This document shows, piece after piece, positions 1-20,892 of a DNA stretch of 20,892 nucleotides. The position numbers and the translations under genes were made by a program. Source of the stretch: a virus. Every line of letters begins with the position of its first letter. The first letter of the stretch is position 1. The stretch spans positions 1 through 20,892 of the IMG/VR virus record IMGVR_UViG_3300022746_000058, one strand, 5' to 3'. The notes beneath the pieces were generated by a model. The model was not told where the DNA came from, ran no database searches, and saw only the letters and a list, made by a program, of their open reading frames with translations.

Positions 1-96
1 GTCAATTACGGGATAACCGTAATTCAGCAGGGGGTGTACGAACCGGTTCGGTTGTGTTACGCTTGCCAAAAACAAGACAAGGAAGGATATGAATGA
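1..96 (+). CDS. 3' end of an unidentified phage gene (partial)
   Basis: Frame 1 is open from the first base to TGA at 94-96 and reads 31 residues ending LCYACQKQDKEGYE. The piece contains a C-x-x-C pair (CYAC) that could be half of a zinc-binding site. The stop overlaps the ATG at 93 as ATGA, the classic phage arrangement for translational coupling, and also overlaps the methyltransferase ATG at 89 by 8 bases. This supports a genuine gene end rather than a chance frame. The product cannot be identified from so short a tail. Confidence 0.6.
   Translation, partial: VNYGITVIQQGVYEPVRLCYACQKQDKEGYE
79..95 (+). promoter_or_regulatory. Tandem Shine-Dalgarno sites serving two start codons in different frames
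   Basis: The sequence AAGGAAGGA holds two AAGG cores, at 79-82 and 83-86. The first is 6 bases before ATG 89 (methyltransferase frame). The second, as AAGGA 83-87, is 5 bases before ATG 93 (overlapping +1-frame ORF). ATG 93 also overlaps the upstream stop TGA 94-96. Each start therefore has its own well-spaced site. Use of both starts is inferred, not shown. Confidence 0.55.
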
Positions 97-832
97 GTTG
101 GCTCTTTTCGCAGGTGCTGGTGGAGGAATACTTGGGGGAAAACTCCTTGGATGGCGAACAGTCTGCGCTGTTGAATGGGAACCCTATCCCGCAAGCGTAT
201 TGTGCGCCCGACAAAATGACGGACTTCTCCCGCCTTTCCCAATCTGGGATGACGTACAAACCTTTGACGGAAAACCGTGGCGAGGAATTGTTGATGTCGT
301 ATCGGGAGGCTTTCCATGCCAAGATATTTCAGCGTCAGGAAAAGGCGCAGGAATTGATGGAGAACGTTCCGGAATGTGGCGAGAAATGGCACGGGTCATT
401 CACGAAGTGGGACCCAGATTCGTCTTTGTGGAGAACTCACCAATGCTCACTTCTAGGGGACTTGGAACCGTTCTCGGAGACTTGGCCGCAATGGGGTTTG
501 ATGCGAAATGGGGAGTGCTGGGAGCAGCGGACGTTGGAGCAAACCATCAGAGGGACAGAATCTGGATTGTTGCAAAAGTTCCCAACGCCAGATGCGAGTT
601 GCGGTCAACGTGGAACACAACCGAATTGGACTCCCAAAAGAAAGTCGGGACATCCGGCTCAGTACACCATCAATCAAGCAGTTCGGGATATGGAGCAAAA
701 CAATGGTGGGAAGCTGAACCCGGTGTGGGTCGAATGGTTGATGGGGTGGCCGCTGGGGTGGACAGACTTAGAGCCATTGGTAATGGACAAGTCCCACTTT
801 GTGCTGCAACAGCATGGAAATTATTAAGTTAA
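89..832 (+). CDS. C5-cytosine DNA methyltransferase (Dcm/M.HhaI superfamily), phage orphan type
   Basis: This 247-residue protein transfers a methyl group from S-adenosylmethionine to cytosine C5 in DNA. The family motifs appear in order: FAGAGGG (7-13, SAM binding), GGFPCQDIS (73-81, catalytic Cys77), ENSP (115-118, motif VI), QRDRIWI (154-160, motif VIII) and GNGQVP (231-236, motif X). The target-recognition region between about 163 and 215 is very short and rich in Ser, Asn and Gln, so the sequence specificity cannot be read. No restriction endonuclease lies beside it. In phages such orphan enzymes usually shield DNA from host restriction or mark it (family knowledge). ATG 89 is the first start in frame: an in-frame stop lies at 20-22 and no ATG intervenes. 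A second ORF overlaps nearly the whole gene in the +1 frame. Confidence 0.88.
   Translation: MNELALFAGAGGGILGGKLLGWRTVCAVEWEPYPASVLCARQNDGLLPPFPIWDDVQTFDGKPWRGIVDVVSGGFPCQDISASGKGAGIDGERSGMWREMARVIHEVGPRFVFVENSPMLTSRGLGTVLGDLAAMGFDAKWGVLGAADVGANHQRDRIWIVAKVPNARCELRSTWNTTELDSQKKVGTSGSVHHQSSSSGYGAKQWWEAEPGVGRMVDGVAAGVDRLRAIGNGQVPLCAATAWKLLS
93..827 (+). CDS. Overlapping +1-frame ORF: conserved phage hypothetical protein nested in the methyltransferase gene
   Basis: This 244-codon ORF shares almost every base with the methyltransferase gene but is read one base on. It starts MSWLFSQVLVEEY and carries FSETWPQWGLMRNGECW (127-143), FPTPDA (163-168) and LNPVWVEWLMGWPLGWTDL (208-226). From memory, this motif order is typical of phage and methyltransferase-associated hypothetical proteins, some encoded without a known overlap; I could not search. 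Its start has AAGGA 5 bases upstream and an ATGA overlap with the preceding stop, a better context than the methyltransferase start. It is rich in Trp and looks like a folded protein. Function is unknown; a partner or recognition role for the methyltransferase is speculation. The alternative is a shadow frame kept open by conservation of the methyltransferase. Confidence 0.5.
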   Translation: MSWLFSQVLVEEYLGENSLDGEQSALLNGNPIPQAYCAPDKMTDFSRLSQSGMTYKPLTENRGEELLMSYREAFHAKIFQRQEKAQELMENVPECGEKWHGSFTKWDPDSSLWRTHQCSLLGDLEPFSETWPQWGLMRNGECWEQRTLEQTIRGTESGLLQKFPTPDASCGQRGTQPNWTPKRKSGHPAQYTINQAVRDMEQNNGGKLNPVWVEWLMGWPLGWTDLEPLVMDKSHFVLQQHGNY

Positions 833-853
833 ACTTTATAAGACAGAAAACCT

Positions 854-1225
854 ATGGCAAAAAAACCTCGTCACATTCTTGGCTACTTGAACGACCCCAA
901 CTCATGGAGCAGGGAAGCGTTCGAGACTGCTATTCGCGCAGAAGTTGAAAGCTCGACTGGCGCACTCACGGCATCCGATGAACTGCTGATTGGCACATTG
1001 GTGATTACTGTGGACAGCTTGCTGACTGCCGAAATCAACATCCGTGAGCAAGGGCATACATTCCATTACAACTCTGGTGAAGCCACAGGACCGTGGTACA
1101 AGATTCGGACTGAGATGGCTGACAAGGCTGTGAAGATTCTTGCGGAGCTTGGGCTGGTTGCCCGTGGTCGTCCAAAGTTAAAAGCCAAAGTAAGTGATGT
1201 AGATGAGTTATTCGCCACAGCTTGA
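854..1225 (+). CDS. terS: Terminase small subunit, P27 family
   Basis: This 123-residue protein is the DNA-recognition subunit of the packaging motor. It binds the packaging site and hands DNA to the large subunit. The C-terminal half has the P27-family pattern: a GPWYKIRTEMADKAVKIL helix, then GLVARGRPK (about 100-108), and an acidic tail SDVDELFATA. Length is typical of the family. The start at ATG 854 has no clear Shine-Dalgarno sequence, so initiation may be weak or coupled to the preceding genes, which end 21 bases upstream. The end overlaps the large terminase gene by 23 bases, as expected for a co-translated packaging pair. Confidence 0.85.
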   Translation: MAKKPRHILGYLNDPNSWSREAFETAIRAEVESSTGALTASDELLIGTLVITVDSLLTAEINIREQGHTFHYNSGEATGPWYKIRTEMADKAVKILAELGLVARGRPKLKAKVSDVDELFATA

Positions 1226-2882
1226 ATCAGCGTTTCAATACGCCATTAGTGTAGTTCGTGGGGATATAGCAGCGTGTGAGGATGTCAAACTGGCTTGCCA
1301 GCGATTCCTTGACATGGCTGAACGCAAGGATGCGCCCTACGAATTTGTGGCTGACAAAGCCGAACACATTTTGAAGTTTGTCAGGTTCTGCCGACATGTC
1401 AAAGGTCCAGATGCTGGCAAAGCAATTGAGCTTGAGCCGTTCCAGATTATGTTTCTGGCTGGCATATATGGCTTTCGCGCTAAGAACGATGTGAACACTC
1501 GGTGGACAACCGATGTCATTTTGTTTGTTCCACGCAAATCAGGGAAAACCACTATAGCGTCCATTATTGCGCTTTATGAGTTGCAATTTGGCGATGCTGG
1601 CGCGGAGGTGTTTACTCTGGCTACCAACCGTGACCAAGCGTCTATTTGCTTTGATTCGTCTAAAGCTATTGTCGAAGGCATGAAGGCAGAACTGGCGGCT
1701 AAGTTTATTGTTTACCGCAGTGAGCTAAAGAAGGCTGGCGACTCGACTTCTACTTACCGCGCCCTGTCCCGTGAGAACAGAAAAACCGGTGATGGTAAAA
1801 ACCCTAGTGTCGCGATGATTGACGAAGCTGCCCAGATTGTGGAGCGGTCCAGTATTGAAGTGTTGCACTCTGGTATGGGCGCTCGTAAGAATCCATTGCG
1901 GATGTATTTGACCACTGCCAGCTTTACCAAAGAGACAAAGTTCTACGAGGATTTGAACCATTTCCGGTCGGTTTTGCGTGGTGCTGCTGCTGACAATTTC
2001 AGGTGGTTTGGACTGCTGTACAGCATCGACCCCGGTGACGAATGGAGCAATCCTGAAGTTTGGGGCAAAGCCAATCCTATGCTAGGTGTGTCAGTTACCA
2101 AAGAACACATCAAGCACATGGCTGAAGAGGCATCTGCCAAGCCAGCCAGCCTGAATGAGTTCCTGTGCAAACAATTGAACATCTATGTGTCTGCCAATGC
2201 CGCATGGGTTGACAGGCGCTTCTGGGATGAGTCTGTTGCTGAAAAACCACAGGATAAACCTGAGTCAACATTTATCGGTTTTGACTTGGCGCACACGCGA
2301 GATTTAAACGCTGTCGTTACTTTGCACCGATATGGCGAAGAAGATTTCTATTCGCAGTTCCAATTCTTCTTGCCAGAGGAGTCATTGGATTTTGTGCCGA
2401 ACCATTACAAGTCTATCTACCAACAGGCTCACAAAAGTGGCATTTTGAGGCTCACACCGGGTAACGTGACTGACTTGAATGAGATTGAATCGTTCATCAA
2501 GCAACAGTGTGAGAAATATGAAGTCAAAGAAATTGGATACGATCCCTATAACGCTGCGGCTCTTGTCGCCAATCTTTATGCTGACGGTTTACCTGTTAAA
2601 AAGGTCGGTCAGGGTATGGCGGTTCTATCAAACCCGTCTAAAACAACCGAGCAATTGATTCTGAAGAAAGCCATTAAGCATGATGGCAATCCTTTTGTTG
2701 GTTGGCAGCTAGGAAATTGCGAGGTTTACATTGATGTCAACGGAAACGTGAAGGTCAGAAAGAACGAAGCAGACCCATCTGCCAAAGTTGACGGTATTAT
2801 TGCCATGATTATGGCGATGCACTGCCATTTGGATAACGTATTTGTGAGCGATTCATTTGGATTCCGTTCATTTGAATGGTAA
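1203..2882 (+). CDS. terL: Terminase large subunit (packaging ATPase and nuclease)
   Basis: This 559-residue motor protein pumps DNA into the prohead and cuts the concatemer. The N-terminal ATPase has a Walker A motif VPRKSGKTT (109-117) and a Walker B motif VAMIDE (203-208), followed by a coupling-type segment YLTTAS (235-240). The C-terminal RNase H-like nuclease has the expected acidic residues: Asp361 in GFDLAHTRD, Asp447 in GYDPYN and Asp530 in KVDGIIA. Length and motif spacing match HK97-type (Terminase_1) large subunits. It starts inside the end of the small subunit gene, and the portal follows 24 bases later, giving the standard packaging order. Whether packaging is cos or headful cannot be told from the sequence. 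Confidence 0.95.
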   Translation: MSYSPQLESAFQYAISVVRGDIAACEDVKLACQRFLDMAERKDAPYEFVADKAEHILKFVRFCRHVKGPDAGKAIELEPFQIMFLAGIYGFRAKNDVNTRWTTDVILFVPRKSGKTTIASIIALYELQFGDAGAEVFTLATNRDQASICFDSSKAIVEGMKAELAAKFIVYRSELKKAGDSTSTYRALSRENRKTGDGKNPSVAMIDEAAQIVERSSIEVLHSGMGARKNPLRMYLTTASFTKETKFYEDLNHFRSVLRGAAADNFRWFGLLYSIDPGDEWSNPEVWGKANPMLGVSVTKEHIKHMAEEASAKPASLNEFLCKQLNIYVSANAAWVDRRFWDESVAEKPQDKPESTFIGFDLAHTRDLNAVVTLHRYGEEDFYSQFQFFLPEESLDFVPNHYKSIYQQAHKSGILRLTPGNVTDLNEIESFIKQQCEKYEVKEIGYDPYNAAALVANLYADGLPVKKVGQGMAVLSNPSKTTEQLILKKAIKHDGNPFVGWQLGNCEVYIDVNGNVKVRKNEADPSAKVDGIIAMIMAMHCHLDNVFVSDSFGFRSFEW

Positions 2883-5243: not shown

Positions 5244-6593
5244 ATGTCTAAAGAAATCATCGAAAAACTGGATGCTATCGAGGCTTCGCAAGCCGAGAAA
5301 ATCCAAGCAGTTGAAGCTGCTATCCCCGCTGCTGTTGAAGCTGTCAAAGCTGAATTCAGCGAAATGGTGTCTGCTCTGGAAGCCAAAGTTGCTTCTGTGC
5401 AAGCTCCTGCTATCCACAAAGAGAAGGCCAAGAGCGTTCGTCAAGACGTTAACCGTCTGGTGCGCGAACAACTCAAAGAGATGGCTTCTGGCAAGTCCAA
5501 TGTGGACAAAGAACTGAAGATTTTCTCTGACGAGTCGCAACTGGCTGCGTACATGACTGAAGCCTCTGCTCTGACCGCTGGCGGTGATGGCAAAGGTGGT
5601 CGTACTGCTTACGATCCCGTGTTCCGCGCTCTGCGTCTGGAAAACCCTCTGCGCGGCGTGTCTCGCACCGTTGCTACCGATGGTTCCAGCTATCAGTTCC
5701 GTGTGAAGACTGGCAACGCTGGCGCTCAGTGGGGCTATGCAATCCAGAACAACGGTTCGGCTACTACTGAAAACACCAGTATCTGGCAAATCGTTCTGAA
5801 GGACATCAACGTGCAGTTCCCGATCCGTACTGCGGCTCTGGACGACATCGACGGCTTGGAAGCCAACGTGGTTGATGACATGCTGGCTGAATTCGCGCAA
5901 GCTGAAGCTCAGTCCATGATCTCCAACAACGACCAGTCTGGTGACGGTACTACCGTAGCTACTGGTGGTGCTGATGGTCTGCGTGGTCTGGATCAGTACG
6001 GCGGTGCTAACGCTACCTACACTGGTGGTACGCACTCGACTGCTGCTTTCGGTACTTCCGGTACTGGCTCCAACACTGGTCTGCATAGCCTGAACACCTA
6101 TGACCAGTTGACCACTAACGCCAACACCGTGGGCGCTGGTAACGTGACCTACAAGGACATCGTTAACTTCATCTACGCTCTGCCACAGCAGTATTGGACC
6201 CCCAATGCCAAGATCATGATGAACAACGTGTTCTTGTCGCAAGTGCGTGGTCTGGTTGATGACAACGGCGCTCCTATCTTCAACCGTAACGAAGGTTTGT
6301 CGGTTGACGGTATCGTCGGTCAACTGTTGGGCTTCGATGTGGTTGTTAACAGCTACGTTGACGCTCCTGCACAAGCCACTACTGGCTCTGCTGGCACTAC
6401 CAGCCTGTACCCTGCGTACTTCGCTGACTGGTCGCGTTTCCACACGATCATCGACCGTCTGAACATGCTGGTTCGTCGCTATGACCAGACATTGCCCGGC
6501 TACATCACCTTCTACGGTGAAAAGCGTCTGGCAACTTCTGTGCGCGATCCGTTCGCTGGCGTTCGCTATCGTTCGACAGGTACAGCAACCTGA
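5244..6593 (+). CDS. Major capsid protein 1, HK97 fold with N-terminal scaffold (delta) domain
   Basis: The 449-residue product has an N-terminal Ala/Glu/Lys-rich coiled-coil segment (about 1-90), resembling the HK97 delta domain that acts as a built-in scaffold and is removed by the protease. The capsid core (about 105-449) follows, starting SALTAGGDGKGG. It ends with PGYITFYGEKR and VRDPFAG, typical of the HK97 P/A domain and C-terminus. AAAGG (5233-5237) is 6 bases before the ATG. Codon choice is strongly biased to CTG, CGT, GGT and AAC, as expected for the most abundant protein. A strong intrinsic terminator follows. The next gene is a paralogue of residues 107-449. Confidence 0.95.
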   Translation: MSKEIIEKLDAIEASQAEKIQAVEAAIPAAVEAVKAEFSEMVSALEAKVASVQAPAIHKEKAKSVRQDVNRLVREQLKEMASGKSNVDKELKIFSDESQLAAYMTEASALTAGGDGKGGRTAYDPVFRALRLENPLRGVSRTVATDGSSYQFRVKTGNAGAQWGYAIQNNGSATTENTSIWQIVLKDINVQFPIRTAALDDIDGLEANVVDDMLAEFAQAEAQSMISNNDQSGDGTTVATGGADGLRGLDQYGGANATYTGGTHSTAAFGTSGTGSNTGLHSLNTYDQLTTNANTVGAGNVTYKDIVNFIYALPQQYWTPNAKIMMNNVFLSQVRGLVDDNGAPIFNRNEGLSVDGIVGQLLGFDVVVNSYVDAPAQATTGSAGTTSLYPAYFADWSRFHTIIDRLNMLVRRYDQTLPGYITFYGEKRLATSVRDPFAGVRYRSTGTAT

Positions 6594-6646: not shown

Positions 6647-7663
6647 ATGACTACTATCACCGAGAAAATCCTTAGCGGAATCAAACAAGCCTATACAGAA
6701 GGCAGCACAGTCTCCATCGACCTCAAGGAAGCGTCCTCGTTGACTGGTTCCGGTTCGGGTATTGGTGGTCGTGTTATCTTTGATGACGCATTCGCAACGC
6801 TGCGATATGCAAACCCTTTCCGTCAAGCTGCCCGCGTGGTGACAACTGACGGTTCTGATGAACAGTTCGTTGCCAAGACTGGTAACGCTGCTTATCAAAC
6901 GAATCCTTGGGGCTATCCAGTTCAGAATAACACTGGTACTCCCGGCACAAACACCTCGATCTGGCAATTGCCCGTTCGTGCTGTGACTGCACAGCTTCCC
7001 GTCCGTACAGCAGTTCTGTCGGATGTGAACAACTTGCAAAACACTTTGGTTGAAGACCTGATGTTGGAATTCTCGCAAATCGAAGGTGCTTCGATGGCGA
7101 TCAACAACGACCAAGCTGGCTCTACAACCACTTCCACTGGCGCAACATCTGGCCTTCGCGGTCTGGACATGTATACGTCTGGTTCAGAGGCTGCTTATGG
7201 CACTTCTGGCACTGCAATCACTGCTGGTATTCACACACTGGCTACAGTTGCACAAACCAGCGGTGGCGTGACCTATGACAACATTGTTGACATCGTGAAC
7301 GCTTTCCCAAGCCAATACTGGCCTCTTCCCGGCAACGCATGGCACATTCGTCCTTCCATGATTGACTCTCTGCGTAAGCTGAAAGACGGTCAAGGTTTGC
7401 CGCTGTTCGTGGAAACTGGTGATGACGATGGTGGTGCTGTAGCTTATATGTTCGGTTTCAAAGTTGTGCCGAACCCATATTTGTCTACCAGCTTCCCAAT
7501 TTATTTGGCAAACTGGCCTCGTTTCATGACAATCGGCGACAATGAGGAAATGTCGATTCAATTGTTTGAACAGACCACTCCCGGCTTCATGACCATCTAT
7601 GCTGAAAAGCGTGTTGTGTCTACTGTCCGTGATCCGTTTGCTGGCGCTCGTATGAGTGCTTAA
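6647..7663 (+). CDS. Second HK97-fold capsid protein (paralogue lacking the scaffold domain)
   Basis: The 338-residue protein aligns along its whole length with residues 107-449 of the preceding capsid protein. Matching blocks include SSLTGSGSGIGGR with SALTAGGDGKGGR, NTSIWQLPVRAVTAQLPVRT with NTSIWQIVLKDINVQFPIRT, NNDQAG with NNDQSG, GLRGLDMY with GLRGLDQY, and VRDPFAGAR with VRDPFAGVR. The N-terminal ~28 residues are unrelated to the 106-residue scaffold domain. Its own Shine-Dalgarno AGGA (6637-6640) is 6 bases before the ATG. The terminator just upstream suggests lower expression. A minor capsomer, such as a pentamer or vertex subunit comparable to T4 gp24 beside gp23, is the favoured inference. 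A redundant or variant capsid protein is the alternative. Confidence 0.88.
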   Translation: MTTITEKILSGIKQAYTEGSTVSIDLKEASSLTGSGSGIGGRVIFDDAFATLRYANPFRQAARVVTTDGSDEQFVAKTGNAAYQTNPWGYPVQNNTGTPGTNTSIWQLPVRAVTAQLPVRTAVLSDVNNLQNTLVEDLMLEFSQIEGASMAINNDQAGSTTTSTGATSGLRGLDMYTSGSEAAYGTSGTAITAGIHTLATVAQTSGGVTYDNIVDIVNAFPSQYWPLPGNAWHIRPSMIDSLRKLKDGQGLPLFVETGDDDGGAVAYMFGFKVVPNPYLSTSFPIYLANWPRFMTIGDNEEMSIQLFEQTTPGFMTIYAEKRVVSTVRDPFAGARMSA

Positions 7664-9147: not shown

Positions 9148-9672
9148 ATGGCTCTGATTAACAAAGTCTTGCCCGGTTACGTTGCTACGCTGTGGTGTCA
9201 AACCGGCTCTAACCCTACTGCTCTGACAGATACCCAACTGGGTACTTGGACAGGTCAAGTTGCTGACATTATCGGTACGTCTGCTGGCGGCACTGGCACT
9301 GATGGCGAACAGATTCCTGTGGAAGCAGTCCCCGCCTTCGGTTCTGATGACGCTTTTGCAGCTTACTCGGTTGCTGGTGCTCGTACTGGTGCAAAGATCA
9401 CTACCCAAAACCAAGTGACTTCTTTGACCATCACTGCCGCATGGAACCCTGCTGATCCTGCTCAGTTGCTGATGCGTGCTGACGGCACAAGCGGTACGAT
9501 CATCCGTACCTATGTTGTTGCTGTGTATGACGGCACTGACACTGTGGCATACGCCTTCAATGGTCGCGTTGGTGGCCTGAAGTGGGACATGTCTCCTACT
9601 GCTGAAGGTAAATTTGAATTCACCATCCATCCGGTTGGTGGCAACAGCTACGGTTGGTCGAACAACGCTTAA
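9148..9672 (+). CDS. Major tail tube protein
   Basis: The 174-residue beta-rich protein would polymerise into the tail tube around the tape measure. It has repeated TVTSLTIT-like strands (NQVTSLTITAAWNPADPAQ) and a DGTDTVAYAFNGRVGGLKWD stretch typical of siphovirus tube proteins, where a surface beta hairpin is followed by the ring-forming sheet. AAAGGA (9134-9139) lies 8 bases before the ATG. It sits between the tail terminator and the chaperone genes, and a hairpin follows the stop, as after the capsid gene. Confidence 0.82.
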   Translation: MALINKVLPGYVATLWCQTGSNPTALTDTQLGTWTGQVADIIGTSAGGTGTDGEQIPVEAVPAFGSDDAFAAYSVAGARTGAKITTQNQVTSLTITAAWNPADPAQLLMRADGTSGTIIRTYVVAVYDGTDTVAYAFNGRVGGLKWDMSPTAEGKFEFTIHPVGGNSYGWSNNA

Positions 9673-9679
9673 AAAGCGC

Positions 9680-9709
9680 AAAGCCCCAGTGTTGGCGCAC
9701 TGAGGCTTT
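9680..9709 (+). terminator. Terminator-like hairpin after the tail tube gene
   Basis: AAAGCC (9680-9685) pairs with GGCTTT (9704-9709), and CAGTG (9687-9691) with CACTG (9698-9702), separated by one C-A mismatch and closed by a 6-base loop. Only three Ts plus an interrupted T run follow, so it may be a weak terminator or an RNA 3'-end stabiliser. Its place after a highly expressed gene parallels the capsid terminator. Confidence 0.45.
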
Positions 9710-9737
9710 ACTTCCCATGACGTTAATGGAGAACGAA

Positions 9738-10286
9738 ATGAGCGAAACAATTGTATTGAAAAAACAATGTGGTACATGCAAAGAGACAAAAGAAATTTTG
9801 TGTTTTTCTGCAAATCCACAAGGCAAATATGGTTTGTCTAGCAGATGCAAATCTTGTGACAAGTTGTATTATCAGAAAAATGCAGAAAAAATAAAACAAA
9901 ACGCCAAACAATGGAAAGCAAACAATTTGCAAAAAGTTCTTGAGCAAAAGAAGAATCATTATTCTAAAAATAGTGATGTCTACAAATCAAGAGCAAGAAG
10001 CTGGGAATCTTTGAATAAAGAAAAACATGCCGAGTTGTCGTACTTTTATTGCGCCAAAAGAAGATCGCACAAAAAAACATGCACTCCATCTTGGGCGAAT
10101 CTTGAGGCAATTAAAGAAATTTATGCAAAGGCGTCAAGAATGAGAAAGAATGGATTTGATGTTGAAGTTGACCACATCATTCCTTTGATAAATAATAAGG
10201 TTTGTGGGCTTCATGTTCCAGAAAATCTTATGATTATCACAAAACAAGAAAACAGAAAAAAACACAATCAATTTTTAATAGAATAA
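9738..10286 (+). CDS. HNH endonuclease, probably a mobile (homing-type) insertion
   Basis: Start ATG 9738 (182 residues) is chosen because GGAGA (9728-9732) lies 5 bases upstream; the frame also runs back to ATG 9654 but that part overlaps the tube gene and the hairpin. N-terminal zinc ligands are CGTC (11-14) and CKSC (37-40). The HNH core near the C-terminus reads VDHIIPL (144-150), GLHVPENLMII (157-167) and ENRKKHNQ (171-178), with His146, Asn163 and Asn177 as the candidate metal and catalytic residues. The middle is Lys/Asn-rich and likely helical, suited to DNA binding. The gene is plainly more A-rich than its neighbours: bases 9901-9960 are 20 G+C of 60, against 33 of 60 at 9541-9600. 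It sits between tail genes in the same direction, as free-standing homing nucleases do. Confidence 0.85.
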   Translation: MSETIVLKKQCGTCKETKEILCFSANPQGKYGLSSRCKSCDKLYYQKNAEKIKQNAKQWKANNLQKVLEQKKNHYSKNSDVYKSRARSWESLNKEKHAELSYFYCAKRRSHKKTCTPSWANLEAIKEIYAKASRMRKNGFDVEVDHIIPLINNKVCGLHVPENLMIITKQENRKKHNQFLIE

Positions 10287-15973: not shown

Positions 15974-18900
15974 ATGGTCGGGTCAATCATTGTTGCGGAA
16001 ATTACTTCGACAGCAGTTGCTGCGTTTTCTGCTGCCCAAACCGCTGCTGCTTTTGCCATTAACTTTGCTGTTTCTCAGATCGTGACCCGTGTGTTTGGTC
16101 AGAATCAGCAAGGTCAACAAGACAATGGCGTTCGCCAGCAAGTTCCGCCATCGAATGTGAATGCAATTCCGGTTGTATATGGTGATGCGTATCTTGGCGG
16201 CACATTTGTTGATGCTGTTCTTTCGACAGACCAAAAGACCATGTACTATGTTATGGCTGTGTCTTGCATCAGCCCTAATGGTCAATTCTCTTTTGATACA
16301 ACCAAGTTCTATTATGGGGATCGACTAATCACGTTTGACACCACAGATTTGACAAAAGTTGTGAGCCTGAGCGATGAGGCGACACCGCCTAACGTGGACA
16401 CAAAGATCAGCGGCAATTTGTACATCAGTCTGTACAAGTCATCTGCGACTGGAACGATTACATCTCTGAACGGCGCTGCGGCTCCAAGTACAGTGATGGG
16501 TGGCTCTGACATTGCATCTGCACAGCGTTGGCCTTCTACTGGTCGCCAGATGAATGGATTGGCATTTGCAATCATCAAGCTGAACTACAGCCAAGATGCT
16601 GGCACAACAAGTCTCAGCCCAATCACATTCCATGCAAGCCATTATTTGAATGGCACTGGTGTTGCAAAGCCGGGTGATGTTTGGTATGACTACGTTACCA
16701 ACCCATACTACGGCGGTGCTGTAGATGCTGCATTTGTTGACTCTGCATCAGCAACTGCATTGAATACTTATTCTGATGGATTGATAACTTATACGCCATC
16801 TGGAGGCGGTTCTGCGACTGAAGCTCGTTATCGCATCAATGGTGTTTTGGATGCTGGTCAATCTGTGTTGAACAATATCGACAAGATCATGACTTGTTGC
16901 GATAGCTGGATGTCTTACAACGCCGCTGCTGGTCAATGGTCTGCTGTCATCAACAAATCTGAAACAGCAGTTTATTCTTTTGATGATGACAACATCATTG
17001 GCGAGATTCGTGTCAGTGCTACAGACATCACGCAATCTATCAATCAAGTCGAAGCCAAGTTTCCCAATAGTGCAAACAGGGATCAGCCTGATTATGTGAA
17101 TTTGGAAACACCTTCAATCCTGTTGTATCCAAATGAGCCTGTAAACAAATACAGTGTTAGCTATGACTTGGTGAATGACAGCGTTCGCGCTCAGTATCTT
17201 GCCAATCGGATTCTTGAGCAGTCACGCGAAGATTTGATTGTCAGCTTCAGCACAACTTACTACGGCATTCAGGTTGATGCTGGTGCTGTGGTTAGCGTGA
17301 CAAACTCTGACTATGGCTGGACAAACAAATTGTTCCGTGTTGTCAAAGTGAATGAGGCATCTTTGCCTGATGGTTCGCTTGGCGCTCGTCTTGAGATGAA
17401 TGAGTACAGTGCCGCTGTCTATGATGACTTTGACATCACGCAGTACACACCTGTTCCAAATAGCAACATTCCAAGCGCCATCTATTTCAGCGCACTGACT
17501 GCCCCTACGGTTGTTGCAAACAACTATAACGTCACGCCCCCCACATTCACAGTTCGTGTAACTGTGCCGACAACAGGTCGTGTGACTTATGGCACGTTGT
17601 ACTACACCACATCATCTTCACCTCTTGATTTTGATTGGAAAGTTCTGGCTACTGCCAATGCGCCAGCAGGTACAGCGGCGGTCAATGGTTCAACATACGA
17701 CTTTGCCAATTTGACATTGGCTGGCGGCACATATTATTTTGCGTATGTGGTTGGTAATGAACTTGGTCAATCCACAAGGTCTTCAAGCAGCACAGCGTTT
17801 GTATGGTCTCCAGTCAACAGTGAGTCTGGTAATGTGGCTTTCCTTCAAGGCGAGATTGATGGCCTGACTATTGATGTTGCTGATAAGGTGAGCAAGACAT
17901 CAACAAGCGTTTTGACCGGCACGATTGTTCCAACTACATCTGGTGGAATTAAAACAGGAACAATCACATGGAACTCATCTGGCGTTCTGACTGGCGGCTC
18001 TGGTGTCGCCATTACATCTAACGGTATTGTTGGCGCTCAGTCTGGAGTTGCAAAATTCACCATTGATACGGCTGGCAATGCATTGTTTATGGGCGACATT
18101 AACACCGATGGCGATGCATATTTTGAAGGTCGCAATCCAGCATCATTCTCTGTTTTGATTGGCTCCACTTCATACAGCATTGATTATTCTTCTCTTTCTA
18201 ATGGCATTTCCGCTGCTTCTGGAAAAGTTCGTGGTGGGGTTGTAGGTTATTCTGCATCGCTTACAAGTTCATACAACGTGGGTGTACTTGGCGTTGGTCG
18301 AAATGGGGTCGCTTGTCCCGGCATTGGCGTTGTTGGAGAAGGTGATTCAATTGGTGGTTACTTCAGCACCACAAGTTCAACAGGCTCGGCTCTTGAATGT
18401 AATAACACTGGCGGCGGTTTTGCTTTAAGGATTGATTCTGGAACATTCAGTTGGGGTGGCTATACCGTTGCTTCCCCAACTGGATCAACAACGACTTTCT
18501 TGCGAAATGATGGTACATGGGCCATTCCATCTGGAAGTGGTGGAGGTACGGTTACCAGCGTAAGCGGCACAGGCAACGTCTATGGCTTGACGCTAAGTGG
18601 CACAGTCACAACCAGTGGAAGTTTGACGCTTGGCGGCTCATTCAATACTGCAAGCATTCCGCTGTCAGCCGTTAACCTTTCTGGCTCAAATATCACGGCT
18701 CGTTTGATTGGTACTTCTGGAAATACCAGTGGTGTCACAGATGTGACTTTTAGTGGAACATTAACAGGCGGCGCATCGGGAACCATCTCATGGACGATGG
18801 GCACAAATACTGCTGCCATCAACATCAACGTCACTTCCGATTCAAGGCTCAAGAAAGACATCGTTGATTTATCTTATGGTCTGGATTTCGTCAAGAAACT

Positions 18901-19144
18901 TCGTCCAGTCCAATTCAAATGGAATCATGAATTGTTTGCTCACTATGGCGACAAACAAGCCTATGGTTTCTTGGCAAACGAGGTTGAGGAAATCGTGGGA
19001 ACAGATACTACGATGGTCACAACCATTGAGCAAGGTCCGCTGGAAGGGTACAAATCTTTCAGCAATGACGGTATCGTTGCGGCTTTGGTGAAGTCCATTC
19101 AGCAGCTTGAAGAAAGAATTGCTGCATTGGAAAACAAGGTATAA
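15974..19144 (+). CDS. Tip attachment protein (J-like) fused to a fibre stalk and S74 intramolecular chaperone
   Basis: The 1056-residue product is the likely central receptor-binding tip. The N-terminus (1-45) is hydrophobic, with Ala-rich helices, common in this J subclass. A J-type hub core runs to about 490, with RYRINGVLDAGQSVLNNIDK (about 282-301) and SVSYDLVNDSVRAQYLANRI as landmarks. A fibronectin-like region (about 505-612) follows. Residues about 615-950 are Gly/Ser/Thr-rich stalk with LRNDGTW near 845. The C-terminal 102 residues (955-1056) are a peptidase S74 domain starting SDSRLKKDI, the known self-cleavage motif; it folds the fibre trimer and is released. A final coiled coil SIQQLEERIAALENKV closes it. 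AAGGAA (15963-15968) is 6 bases before the ATG. Confidence 0.87.
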   Translation: MVGSIIVAEITSTAVAAFSAAQTAAAFAINFAVSQIVTRVFGQNQQGQQDNGVRQQVPPSNVNAIPVVYGDAYLGGTFVDAVLSTDQKTMYYVMAVSCISPNGQFSFDTTKFYYGDRLITFDTTDLTKVVSLSDEATPPNVDTKISGNLYISLYKSSATGTITSLNGAAAPSTVMGGSDIASAQRWPSTGRQMNGLAFAIIKLNYSQDAGTTSLSPITFHASHYLNGTGVAKPGDVWYDYVTNPYYGGAVDAAFVDSASATALNTYSDGLITYTPSGGGSATEARYRINGVLDAGQSVLNNIDKIMTCCDSWMSYNAAAGQWSAVINKSETAVYSFDDDNIIGEIRVSATDITQSINQVEAKFPNSANRDQPDYVNLETPSILLYPNEPVNKYSVSYDLVNDSVRAQYLANRILEQSREDLIVSFSTTYYGIQVDAGAVVSVTNSDYGWTNKLFRVVKVNEASLPDGSLGARLEMNEYSAAVYDDFDITQYTPVPNSNIPSAIYFSALTAPTVVANNYNVTPPTFTVRVTVPTTGRVTYGTLYYTTSSSPLDFDWKVLATANAPAGTAAVNGSTYDFANLTLAGGTYYFAYVVGNELGQSTRSSSSTAFVWSPVNSESGNVAFLQGEIDGLTIDVADKVSKTSTSVLTGTIVPTTSGGIKTGTITWNSSGVLTGGSGVAITSNGIVGAQSGVAKFTIDTAGNALFMGDINTDGDAYFEGRNPASFSVLIGSTSYSIDYSSLSNGISAASGKVRGGVVGYSASLTSSYNVGVLGVGRNGVACPGIGVVGEGDSIGGYFSTTSSTGSALECNNTGGGFALRIDSGTFSWGGYTVASPTGSTTTFLRNDGTWAIPSGSGGGTVTSVSGTGNVYGLTLSGTVTTSGSLTLGGSFNTASIPLSAVNLSGSNITARLIGTSGNTSGVTDVTFSGTLTGGASGTISWTMGTNTAAININVTSDSRLKKDIVDLSYGLDFVKKLRPVQFKWNHELFAHYGDKQAYGFLANEVEEIVGTDTTMVTTIEQGPLEGYKSFSNDGIVAALVKSIQQLEERIAALENKV
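18836..18862 (+). other. Predicted S74 self-cleavage site (SDSRLKKDI)
   Basis: The codons encode residues 955-963. In endosialidase-type chaperones cleavage occurs at the serine that opens this S-D-x-R-L-K motif (family knowledge), which would leave a mature tip protein of 954 residues and a 102-residue released chaperone. Confidence 0.65.
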
Positions 19145-19696: not shown

Positions 19697-19705
19697 GGAT
19701 TGGCT

Positions 19706-20892
19706 ATGAGCAACTTGAAGGTTACGGTTCTTGATGGCAACAACGTCAGTCTTGAGGTTGTTCCACAGCCTCGCGTTGAAGCACGCATTGATCGTGGTGT
19801 AGCTGGTCCAACTGGCCCTATGGGGCCAACTGGTAGCGGTCCTACAGGCCCACAAGGAAATGCTGGACCTACTGGTCCTACGGGCGCTATGGGGCCAACA
19901 GGCACAGGTCCAACTGGTCCGCAGGGAAATGCTGGGCCTACGGGTCCAACTGGCTCAATGGGGGCAACTGGGCCAACAGGACAGGCTGGAACTACTGGCG
20001 ATGTTGGCCCAACAGGTCCACAAGGTGTCCAAGGTATTCAAGGGGTTCAGGGCATTCAAGGCCCAACAGGACCTCAAGGTGAACAGGGCATTCAAGGCAT
20101 TGCTGGACCCACTGGACCAACTGGTGCTAATGGTGCTAATGGAGCCACAGGCCCAACAGGCCCTACAGGCGCACAAGGCATCCAAGGTGTCGCAGGCCCG
20201 ACAGGCGCACAAGGTATTCAAGGCAATATTGGACCAACTGGTCCGACAGGCGCTGATTCGACTGTTGCTGGCCCTACTGGGCCGACAGGCGCTCAAGGCA
20301 TTCAAGGTATCCAAGGTAATGTCGGTCCAACTGGTCCACAGGGCATTCAGGGCGATCAAGGCGTTCAAGGTATTGCTGGCCCTACTGGCCCTCAAGGTAT
20401 TCAAGGAGACACTGGTCCCACTGGACCTACAGGCGCTCAAGGCGATCAAGGTGCAGTCGGCCCAACAGGACCTACGGGAGCGCAAGGCGCACAAGGTACA
20501 TCCATTAACCTTAAAGGTGAAGTTGCTACTGTTGGCGATCTCCCTATGGTTGGCAACCTTCCCAATGATGCATACATCGTTACCTCTGAAGGTAATCTGT
20601 ATGTATGGAACGGTACATCATGGTTTGATGCTGGTCAGATTGTTGGTCCTCAAGGCCCAACTGGCGCTCAAGGGCCAACTGGCCCAACGGGCGCTCAAGG
20701 CATTCAAGGCATCCAAGGTGATGTTGGGCCGACTGGCCCTACAGGCGCACAAGGCGATGTCGGCCCTACCGGTCCTCAAGGTATTCAAGGCATTCAAGGG
20801 GTACAAGGCGATGTTGGTCCAACGGGTCCTACTGGAGCGCAAGGCATCCAAGGTGAGGTTGGTCCTACTGGCCCCCAAGGCATTCAGGGTGT
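19706..20892 (+). CDS. Collagen-like tail fibre protein (3' end beyond the window)
   Basis: ATG 19706 follows AAGGA (19695-19699) by 6 bases; the frame stays open to the window edge for 395 codons plus two bases. A short N-terminal domain ([20 protein letters not shown] to about residue 32) probably attaches to the tail. Gly-X-Y triplets follow, mainly GPT, GPQ, GIQ and GAQ, which should form a triple helix. The collagen run is broken at about 20489-20640 by a 50-residue insert ([14 protein letters not shown], then [17 protein letters not shown]), which looks like a small knob or trimerisation or sugar-binding module, then resumes. It is likely a long side or tip fibre used in host recognition. 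The C-terminal end and any adhesin tip are not seen. Confidence 0.88.
19802..20892 (+). repeat. Imperfect 9-base Gly-X-Y repeat tract (with one non-repeat insert)
   Basis: Runs of near-identical units, such as GGCCCAACAGGCCCTACAGG and GGCATTCAAGGTATCCAAGG, recur through the fibre gene. They are interrupted by unique sequence at about 20489-20640 and continue past the window edge. Such tracts recombine and change length easily, so allele length may vary between relatives. Confidence 0.8.

Follow-up and report, generated by a model that had tools for sequence, protein, structure and literature searches.

An overlapping pair of reading frames in a phage probably encodes the two chains of one C5-cytosine DNA methyltransferase

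At one end of a viral contig two long open reading frames of the same strand occupy nearly the same bases, one of them specifying a C5-cytosine DNA methyltransferase. One question then is whether the second frame is coding at all and, if it is, how its product would be related to the methyltransferase with which it shares its DNA. The window, by which we mean the whole stretch of 20,892 nucleotides analysed here (IMG/VR virus record IMGVR_UViG_3300022746_000058, positions 1 to 20,892), contains in its ORF list the frame that we call alpha (247 residues, ATG start) and, in the +1 frame relative to it, the frame that we call beta (244 residues, ATG start). The initial observation, made from the sequence alone, that both cover almost the same bases of one strand is borne out, the overlap amounting to 735 of the 744 nucleotides of alpha (Table 1). 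We consider it highly probable, on the strength of the sequence comparisons set out below, that the two overlapping frames specify the subunits of a single heterodimeric C5-cytosine DNA methyltransferase, in which alpha would provide the AdoMet-binding and catalytic core with motifs I-VIII and X, and beta the parts usually found between motifs VIII and X of a single chain, namely the target-recognition region and motif IX.

Table 1. Features of the alpha/beta locus and the adjoining terminase genes, in window coordinates
Feature	Position	Strand	Basis
Candidate Shine-Dalgarno-like sequence AAGGAAGG, able to serve both starts	79..86	+	Sequence
Alpha, predicted catalytic chain (C5-cytosine DNA methyltransferase) with motifs I-VIII and X but without IX	89..832	+	PF00145 E 3.4e-29, residues 4-184; phrog_363 E 3.6e-66; M.HhaI E 1.4e-12
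Alpha motifs I-VIII (AdoMet site, PCQ nucleophile, ENS, QRDRI)	89..574	+	
Beta, +1-frame chain: conserved N-terminal region, predicted recognition region, motif IX	93..827	+	phrog_1008 E 8.2e-26; synonymous constraint; hhalign to split beta chains and single-chain enzymes
Beta motif FSETWPQWGLMRNGECW	471..521	+	Alpha p4 0.10 at codons 121-140, among the most constrained
Variable region: putative beta recognition (TRD-like, PTP); low-conservation linker in alpha	582..713	+	Identity beta 0.237 vs alpha 0.165; aligns with VIII-IX region of single-chain enzymes
Beta motif IX LNPVWVEWLMGWPLGWTDL	714..770	+	Motif-IX model 27.5 bits; p4 0.065, alpha codons 201-220
Alpha motif X (RLRAIGNGQVP...)	764..826	+	Motif-X pattern in alpha frame
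Terminase small subunit (Terminase_4)	854-1225		Pfam
Terminase large subunit	1203-2882		

Proposed division of the enzyme between two frames

The terminase genes lie directly downstream of the locus, on what is a tailed-phage contig. Elsewhere in the window there are two tandem capsid-family genes, each with a PF05065 match (5244-6593 and 6647-7663), a Cys-rich ORF among the tail genes, HNH-like by eye and without a Pfam match (9654-10286), a long gene judged by its position to encode a tail protein, with a C-terminal Peptidase_S74 chaperone-of-endosialidase domain (15974-19144), and a gene for a collagen-like protein with GPTGP repeats (PF01391), which runs off the window end (19700-20890). 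A promoter and terminator scan of window positions 1-900 gave no excess over shuffles, and the RNA fold near the two starts is unremarkable (z 0.37).

Alpha matches PF00145 above the cut-off, the match spanning residues 4-184 only, and its closest PDB sequence is M.HhaI. It carries the core of a C5-methyltransferase, motifs I-VIII with the PCQ nucleophile, labelled as is usual for these enzymes, and the bases of this core double as the coding region for the N-terminal part of beta. Motifs IX and X are complete only if both frames are counted, IX lying in beta and X in alpha. The sequence-only reading had credited the methyltransferase frame with all catalytic motifs, which holds for I-VIII and X but is not quite right for IX, because the motif-IX model reported no match in the alpha frame of the window. 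PADLOC assigned alpha to generic methyltransferase models and beta to no model. Both sequence families have already been catalogued, since the window proteins match phrog_363 (alpha) and phrog_1008 (beta); both are labelled DNA methyltransferase, and nothing in the labels shown points to a gene read in two frames or to a two-chain enzyme.

To judge by homology, the C-terminus of beta is the recognition region and motif IX that alpha lacks. With hhalign, beta aligns to the beta chains of split enzymes (E 2.8e-13) and to the VIII-IX segment of the single-chain enzymes (E 2e-10). When motif IX was modelled from 13 single-chain sequences alone, the +1 frame of the window scored 27.5 bits, and among 148 other fully overlapping loci 147 exceed the 99th percentile of the null; none of the 2960 shuffles of these loci reached the score of its own locus. 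One more locus (L319) gave no score and is omitted, together with its 20 shuffles, which had been counted as reaching the observed score. Likewise, ShiLan gp70 matches both the alpha and the beta family and is, by these matches, a natural fusion of alpha and beta. The recognition region seems to lie in beta, where the fold prediction is of low confidence: AlphaFold gives beta alone a pLDDT of 48, and for a single-chain relative (L381) a pLDDT of 69 and a pTM of 0.71, with a low-confidence recognition region in the middle. The model of this relative aligns with M.HhaI end to end (2-352 on 10-326, Z 22.0, rmsd 3.7, 245 aligned), the E value of its best Foldseek match being 3.3e-17; the collinear HMMER alignment of motifs IX-X to M.HhaI scores -2.2 bits, which is not significant alone, and PF00145 covers only the first part of the single-chain relatives, not IX-X.

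The conserved N-terminal part of beta spans about 120 residues in the genes of the window group, and neither hhalign nor phrog_1008 revealed a counterpart in the single-chain enzymes; the hhalign match of beta to these enzymes starts at column 164, and the match between ShiLan gp70 and phrog_1008 at position 127. Beta has no Pfam or NCBIfam match at the curated cut-off, its sequence matched nothing in the PDB, and its profile gave there three weak, unrelated matches, none of them significant. A conserved N-terminal part of this kind would suit a real overprinted protein of unrelated function, such as an anti-restriction factor or a regulator. We regard this as unlikely, given that single-chain and split enzymes alike contain a recognition-IX part homologous to the C-terminus of beta, that alpha is without exactly the part that beta supplies, and that alpha adjoins beta in 10 of 10 beta-positive bacterial genomes. 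The initial proposal that beta is a partner or specificity factor is consistent with these data and can be made more precise, beta being the enzyme's own predicted recognition region plus motif IX, whereas the term "overprinted" would apply at most to the N-terminal extension and not to the C-terminal part, which is homologous to the enzyme's own region.

On sequence comparison, the homologues form a series from single-chain enzymes, through split genes with a short +1 overlap, to full overlap with motif X in alpha. In ShiLan gp70 and Deb65 gp64 motifs I-VIII, a PTP-rich region, IX (FSEWMMGWPAGWV or FPEWMMGWPAGWV) and X (GNGVVP / GNGVCP) follow one another in one frame. The gene is split after motif VIII in Eagle (gp78/77), Vash (gp32/33) and PrincessTrina (gp81/82), with overlaps of 23, 32 and 38 nucleotides, respectively, and the overlap reaches 209 nucleotides in NiebruSaylor (gp6/5); in Eagle gp77, Vash gp33, PrincessTrina gp82, NiebruSaylor gp5 and Geodirt gp4 the second chain carries IX and then X. 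Pagassa gp59/60 has beta wholly within alpha and motif X in alpha, much like the window. Relatives of beta outside such an overlap, the absence of which had been named as speaking against the initial claim, do exist, as nearly separate genes in Eagle gp77, Vash gp33 and PrincessTrina gp82 and as part of the single-chain enzymes.

Other layouts are also seen. In the Gordonia phage Geodirt (L192) the beta-like gp4 (2069-2935) is the sole annotated chain, and an alpha core (match 1801-2274) overlaps its start without a CDS of its own. A Paenibacillus copy (L314, 2013-2774), either a natural fusion or a sequence error, has alpha running into the beta frame and ending after IX without X, and in a Gallionella genome (L175, 3886-4984) alpha switches frame midway, by mutation or sequence error, continuing in the frame in which beta starts. 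In the E. coli PT62 prophage the same region holds a second annotated DNA cytosine methyltransferase (L455, 43-1029) with a weak +1 motif-IX match of 16.3 bits.

We infer that the arrangement began with the splitting of a single-chain gene; beta would then have extended upstream into alpha, and motif X would have passed from one chain to the other. The variable region of alpha would be a linker, kept open such that alpha reaches motif X.

Translation starts and selection on the second frame

The sequence AAGGAAGG precedes both ATG codons (at 89 and at 93), and AAGGA was scored 5 nucleotides before that of beta. All 89 loci compared have ATG at the beta start position, and 68 have an alpha start codon (46 ATG, 12 TTG, 10 GTG) 4 nucleotides upstream of it. 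Among the other 21, alpha starts 13-22 nucleotides upstream in 13, with a Shine-Dalgarno-like match still 6-8 nucleotides before the beta ATG; the remaining eight have no such match, and those inspected among them (L028, L057) have a beta MSWL start further upstream, so that the ATG counted there is probably not the beta start. No match of at least 4 nucleotides to the Shine-Dalgarno consensus is found within 22 nucleotides upstream in 15 of the 89 loci. The kept beta ATG and the Shine-Dalgarno-like matches make independent initiation of beta likely. Each chain would be translated from its own start, the two being 4 nucleotides apart and served by one ribosome site, and a single mRNA with this single site would make both chains in step.

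A programmed +1 frameshift in alpha, leaving the beta start unused, would yield instead a fused chain of motifs I-VIII, recognition region and IX, the order being that of the single-chain enzymes, and a frame-fused copy does exist in Paenibacillus (L314). We hold such a frameshift to be very improbable: its product would be without motif X, the beta ATG is kept throughout the 89 loci, with a Shine-Dalgarno-like match 6-8 nucleotides before it in 13, beta of the window group is constrained from its first codons, and no slippery site is evident, because the VIII-IX region is poorly conserved.

Beta is a real coding sequence, and both frames are under purifying selection. The +1 frame of the window has no stops, as against a mean of 4.7 in 300 synonymous-codon shuffles of alpha, none of which left it open; the +2 frame of the window has 13. 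Among 80 loci chosen by alpha alone, 79 are free of internal +1 stops (the exception is L141), in a count that ignores the TGA just before the beta ATG and the terminal beta stop; their +2 frame has a mean of 17 stops, and the alpha frame itself is stopped in two (L126, L145). In 89 non-redundant genes (less than 90% identical) synonymous shuffling would leave the +1 frame open with a mean probability of 0.0008; a total of 44 "+1 stops" in this set includes terminal beta stops and is not relied on. Identity in the +2 frame is 0.51-0.65 outside the variable region, compared with 0.30-0.40 in shuffles, and identity in the +1 frame exceeds that in the +2 frame in each of the six regions. A chance ORF is ruled out, as synonymous shuffles close the frame and lose motif IX, and so is a sequencing or assembly frameshift, because the arrangement recurs in hundreds of loci, in named phages, plasmids and genomes.

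The fourfold-degenerate third positions of alpha, which are second positions of beta, diverge by 0.26-0.30 at 55-85% protein identity, compared with 0.56-0.66 in control ORFs from the same contigs at the same identity (348 of 845 control pairs in range). These controls were mechanical ORFs from both strands; a stricter set, the longest non-overlapping ORFs, gives the same answer (0.55-0.66; 290 of 721 pairs in range). Above 85% identity the controls drop to 0.33-0.44 and alpha to 0.22-0.24. The minima of alpha, 0.10 at codons 121-140 and 0.065 at codons 201-220, coincide with beta ETWPQWGLMRNG and LNPVWVEWLMGWP. In the window group constraint is present from the first codons, as is beta itself, parts of the variable region being weakly constrained (0.56-0.58, few sites).

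In two distant groups beta opens further downstream, and alpha there therefore supplies its own control. In the S-H1 group (58 genes) divergence is 0.61-0.69 in columns 1-60, 0.56-0.57 at 61-90, 0.44 at 91-105, 0.16-0.43 at 106-165, 0.09 at motif IX and 0.70 at columns 241-255, past the beta stop; in the Pagassa group (55 genes) it falls from 0.67-0.72 over columns 1-60 to 0.25-0.61 within the overlap, and is 0.68-0.70 beyond column 240. A recount with 74 genes per group placed the first possible start of beta at a median column of 45 (S-H1) and 59 (Pagassa), and its stop some 25-27 columns past the start of motif IX. In the Pagassa group constraint begins shortly past the opening of beta, and in the S-H1 group it builds up gradually, about 45 columns after the first possible start; it ends approximately where beta ends. 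Since divergence is low within the span of beta and high outside it, synonymous constraint in both groups is confined to the open frame of beta.

That the +1 ORF is a passive shadow of the alpha protein's conservation and codon usage is scarcely credible: alpha is highly conserved, and identity in the +2 frame also lies above the shuffles, but shuffles that keep the alpha protein and its codon usage close the frame and lose motif IX, +1 identity is the higher in all six regions, and the synonymous sites of alpha are constrained chiefly where beta lies.

The claim of true dual coding is thus supported by the open frames, by the low synonymous variation of alpha relative to the controls, a comparison of homologous loci that had been proposed with the claim, and by the within-gene controls; the pattern named as speaking against it, a +1 frame broken at neutral rates, is not what the alpha-chosen loci display. 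The trade of constraint between the frames, placed at positions 575-705, stands insofar as alpha is there a linker and beta the better conserved (for alpha codons 166-205, identities from 1500 sampled pairs are in Table 1); the LNP motif assigned to that stretch starts at 714 and falls outside it. The two beta motifs quoted earlier are those at 471-521 and 714-770.

Breadth, known two-chain enzymes and significance

In a survey of 452 alpha loci, which counts related, similarity-picked loci, many sharing contigs, and not independent events, motif IX lies in the +1 frame with alpha spanning it in 372, and in the +1 frame with alpha ending before it and the ORFs still overlapping in 40; 22 are single-chain, 11 have other arrangements, and seven are without a motif-IX match, six of these being cut by the contig end. 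Where alpha crosses the overlap it also carries motif X, which otherwise mostly goes with motif IX. Scored by a simple pattern, motif X falls in the alpha frame of 363 among the 372 full overlaps, is not seen in the other nine and in none of them lies in the motif-IX frame; it accompanies IX in 33 of the 40 partial overlaps, the other seven being without this, and in 21 of the 22 single chains.

Among 23 annotated phage and plasmid loci examined, 21 have motif IX in the +1 frame and the other two are single chains; of 11 loci from bacterial genomes, 10 have it there and the eleventh (L167) ends before the motif, with a beta match in +1; L171-L173 were judged from the 452-locus survey and a later recount. 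Such loci include plasmids of an archaeon, Bacteroides and Nostoc, and phages of Salmonella, Pseudomonas, Klebsiella, Synechococcus and Mycobacterium. In one class-level sample, the seed genome included, beta occurs in 10 of 369 bacterial genomes, with alpha adjoining in all ten and motif IX in +1 in nine. A DNA relative of the Salmonella phage version is present in 4 of 5426 E. coli genomes. Of 50,697 phage records, 209 contain beta relatives (E 0.01 or better) and 1048 alpha relatives, the latter number taking in more distant methyltransferases as well, whatever their arrangement. Annotation of 16 fully overlapping loci covers alpha only in 13, beta only in two and both in one, the plasmid gene tables (L176-L179) being incomplete.

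Among known systems M.EcoHK31I, a bacterial restriction-modification enzyme, has its small-chain gene in another frame of the large-chain gene. The window enzyme would work like it, the two being likened by their described motif layout. According to PMC3404938, the large chain of M.EcoHK31I (YGGCCR) bears motifs I-VIII and X, a separate small polypeptide bears IX, and the target-recognition domain is predicted to belong to the large chain. The window likewise has I-VIII and X on the large chain and IX on beta only; in contrast, its predicted recognition region reads in the beta frame, and the gene is a phage gene beside terminase, with 735 of 744 nucleotides in common. The same paper (PMC3404938) describes M.AquI as naturally split after VIII, with I-VIII and part of the variable region on the large chain and the distal variable region, IX and X on the small one. 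The pairs of Eagle, Vash and PrincessTrina resemble M.AquI and, as does NiebruSaylor, carry both IX and X on the small chain, whereas the window, with motif X in the large chain and an almost complete overlap, falls outside this type. Since two-polypeptide C5-methyltransferases are known from M.EcoHK31I and M.AquI, the principle is not new. Another second frame hidden in a phage methylase gene is the ShiLan domain, in the available text of PMC11855218 an out-of-frame HNH endonuclease inside a mycobacteriophage methylase; that domain is a mobile nuclease insertion, whereas the second frame of the window would be the enzyme's own missing part.

We found no report of a two-frame phage methyltransferase in the open-licence PMC literature, as far as its text was available and with subscription papers and REBASE outside the scope, nor in the available portions of PMC3404938, PMC3439449, PMC5944983, PMC6456624, PMC3711429, PMC11855218 and PMC6070908. 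As far as these searches show, what is new is the near-total overlap with the predicted recognition region in the beta frame, a series of extant forms running from a single chain to full overlap, along which motif X passes to the other chain, and the spread over phages, prophages and plasmids, usually with one frame annotated.

In the heterodimer that we propose, alpha and beta would assemble into an active enzyme, which would methylate the phage DNA, most likely against host restriction, to judge by phage orphan methyltransferases in general. We lean, if only slightly, towards the more general reading that a class of "complete" C5-methyltransferases of phages and prophages are half-enzymes, the second half of which lies in the +1 frame, and that they arose stepwise from single-chain genes. 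The steps would have been a split of the frame after motif VIII, a transfer of motif X to the catalytic chain, and an upstream overprinting of the catalytic core by beta, which would have gained a new N-terminal domain.

If this is true, many annotated phage and prophage cytosine methyltransferases may be only half of their enzyme, and cloning such an annotated ORF after recoding of the second frame would yield a protein that is inactive or has the wrong specificity. Since single-chain, split and overlapping forms are all living, the origin of a gene overlap becomes directly testable, and this in a long, well-sampled same-strand overlap, the two proteins of which are probably partners in one enzyme.
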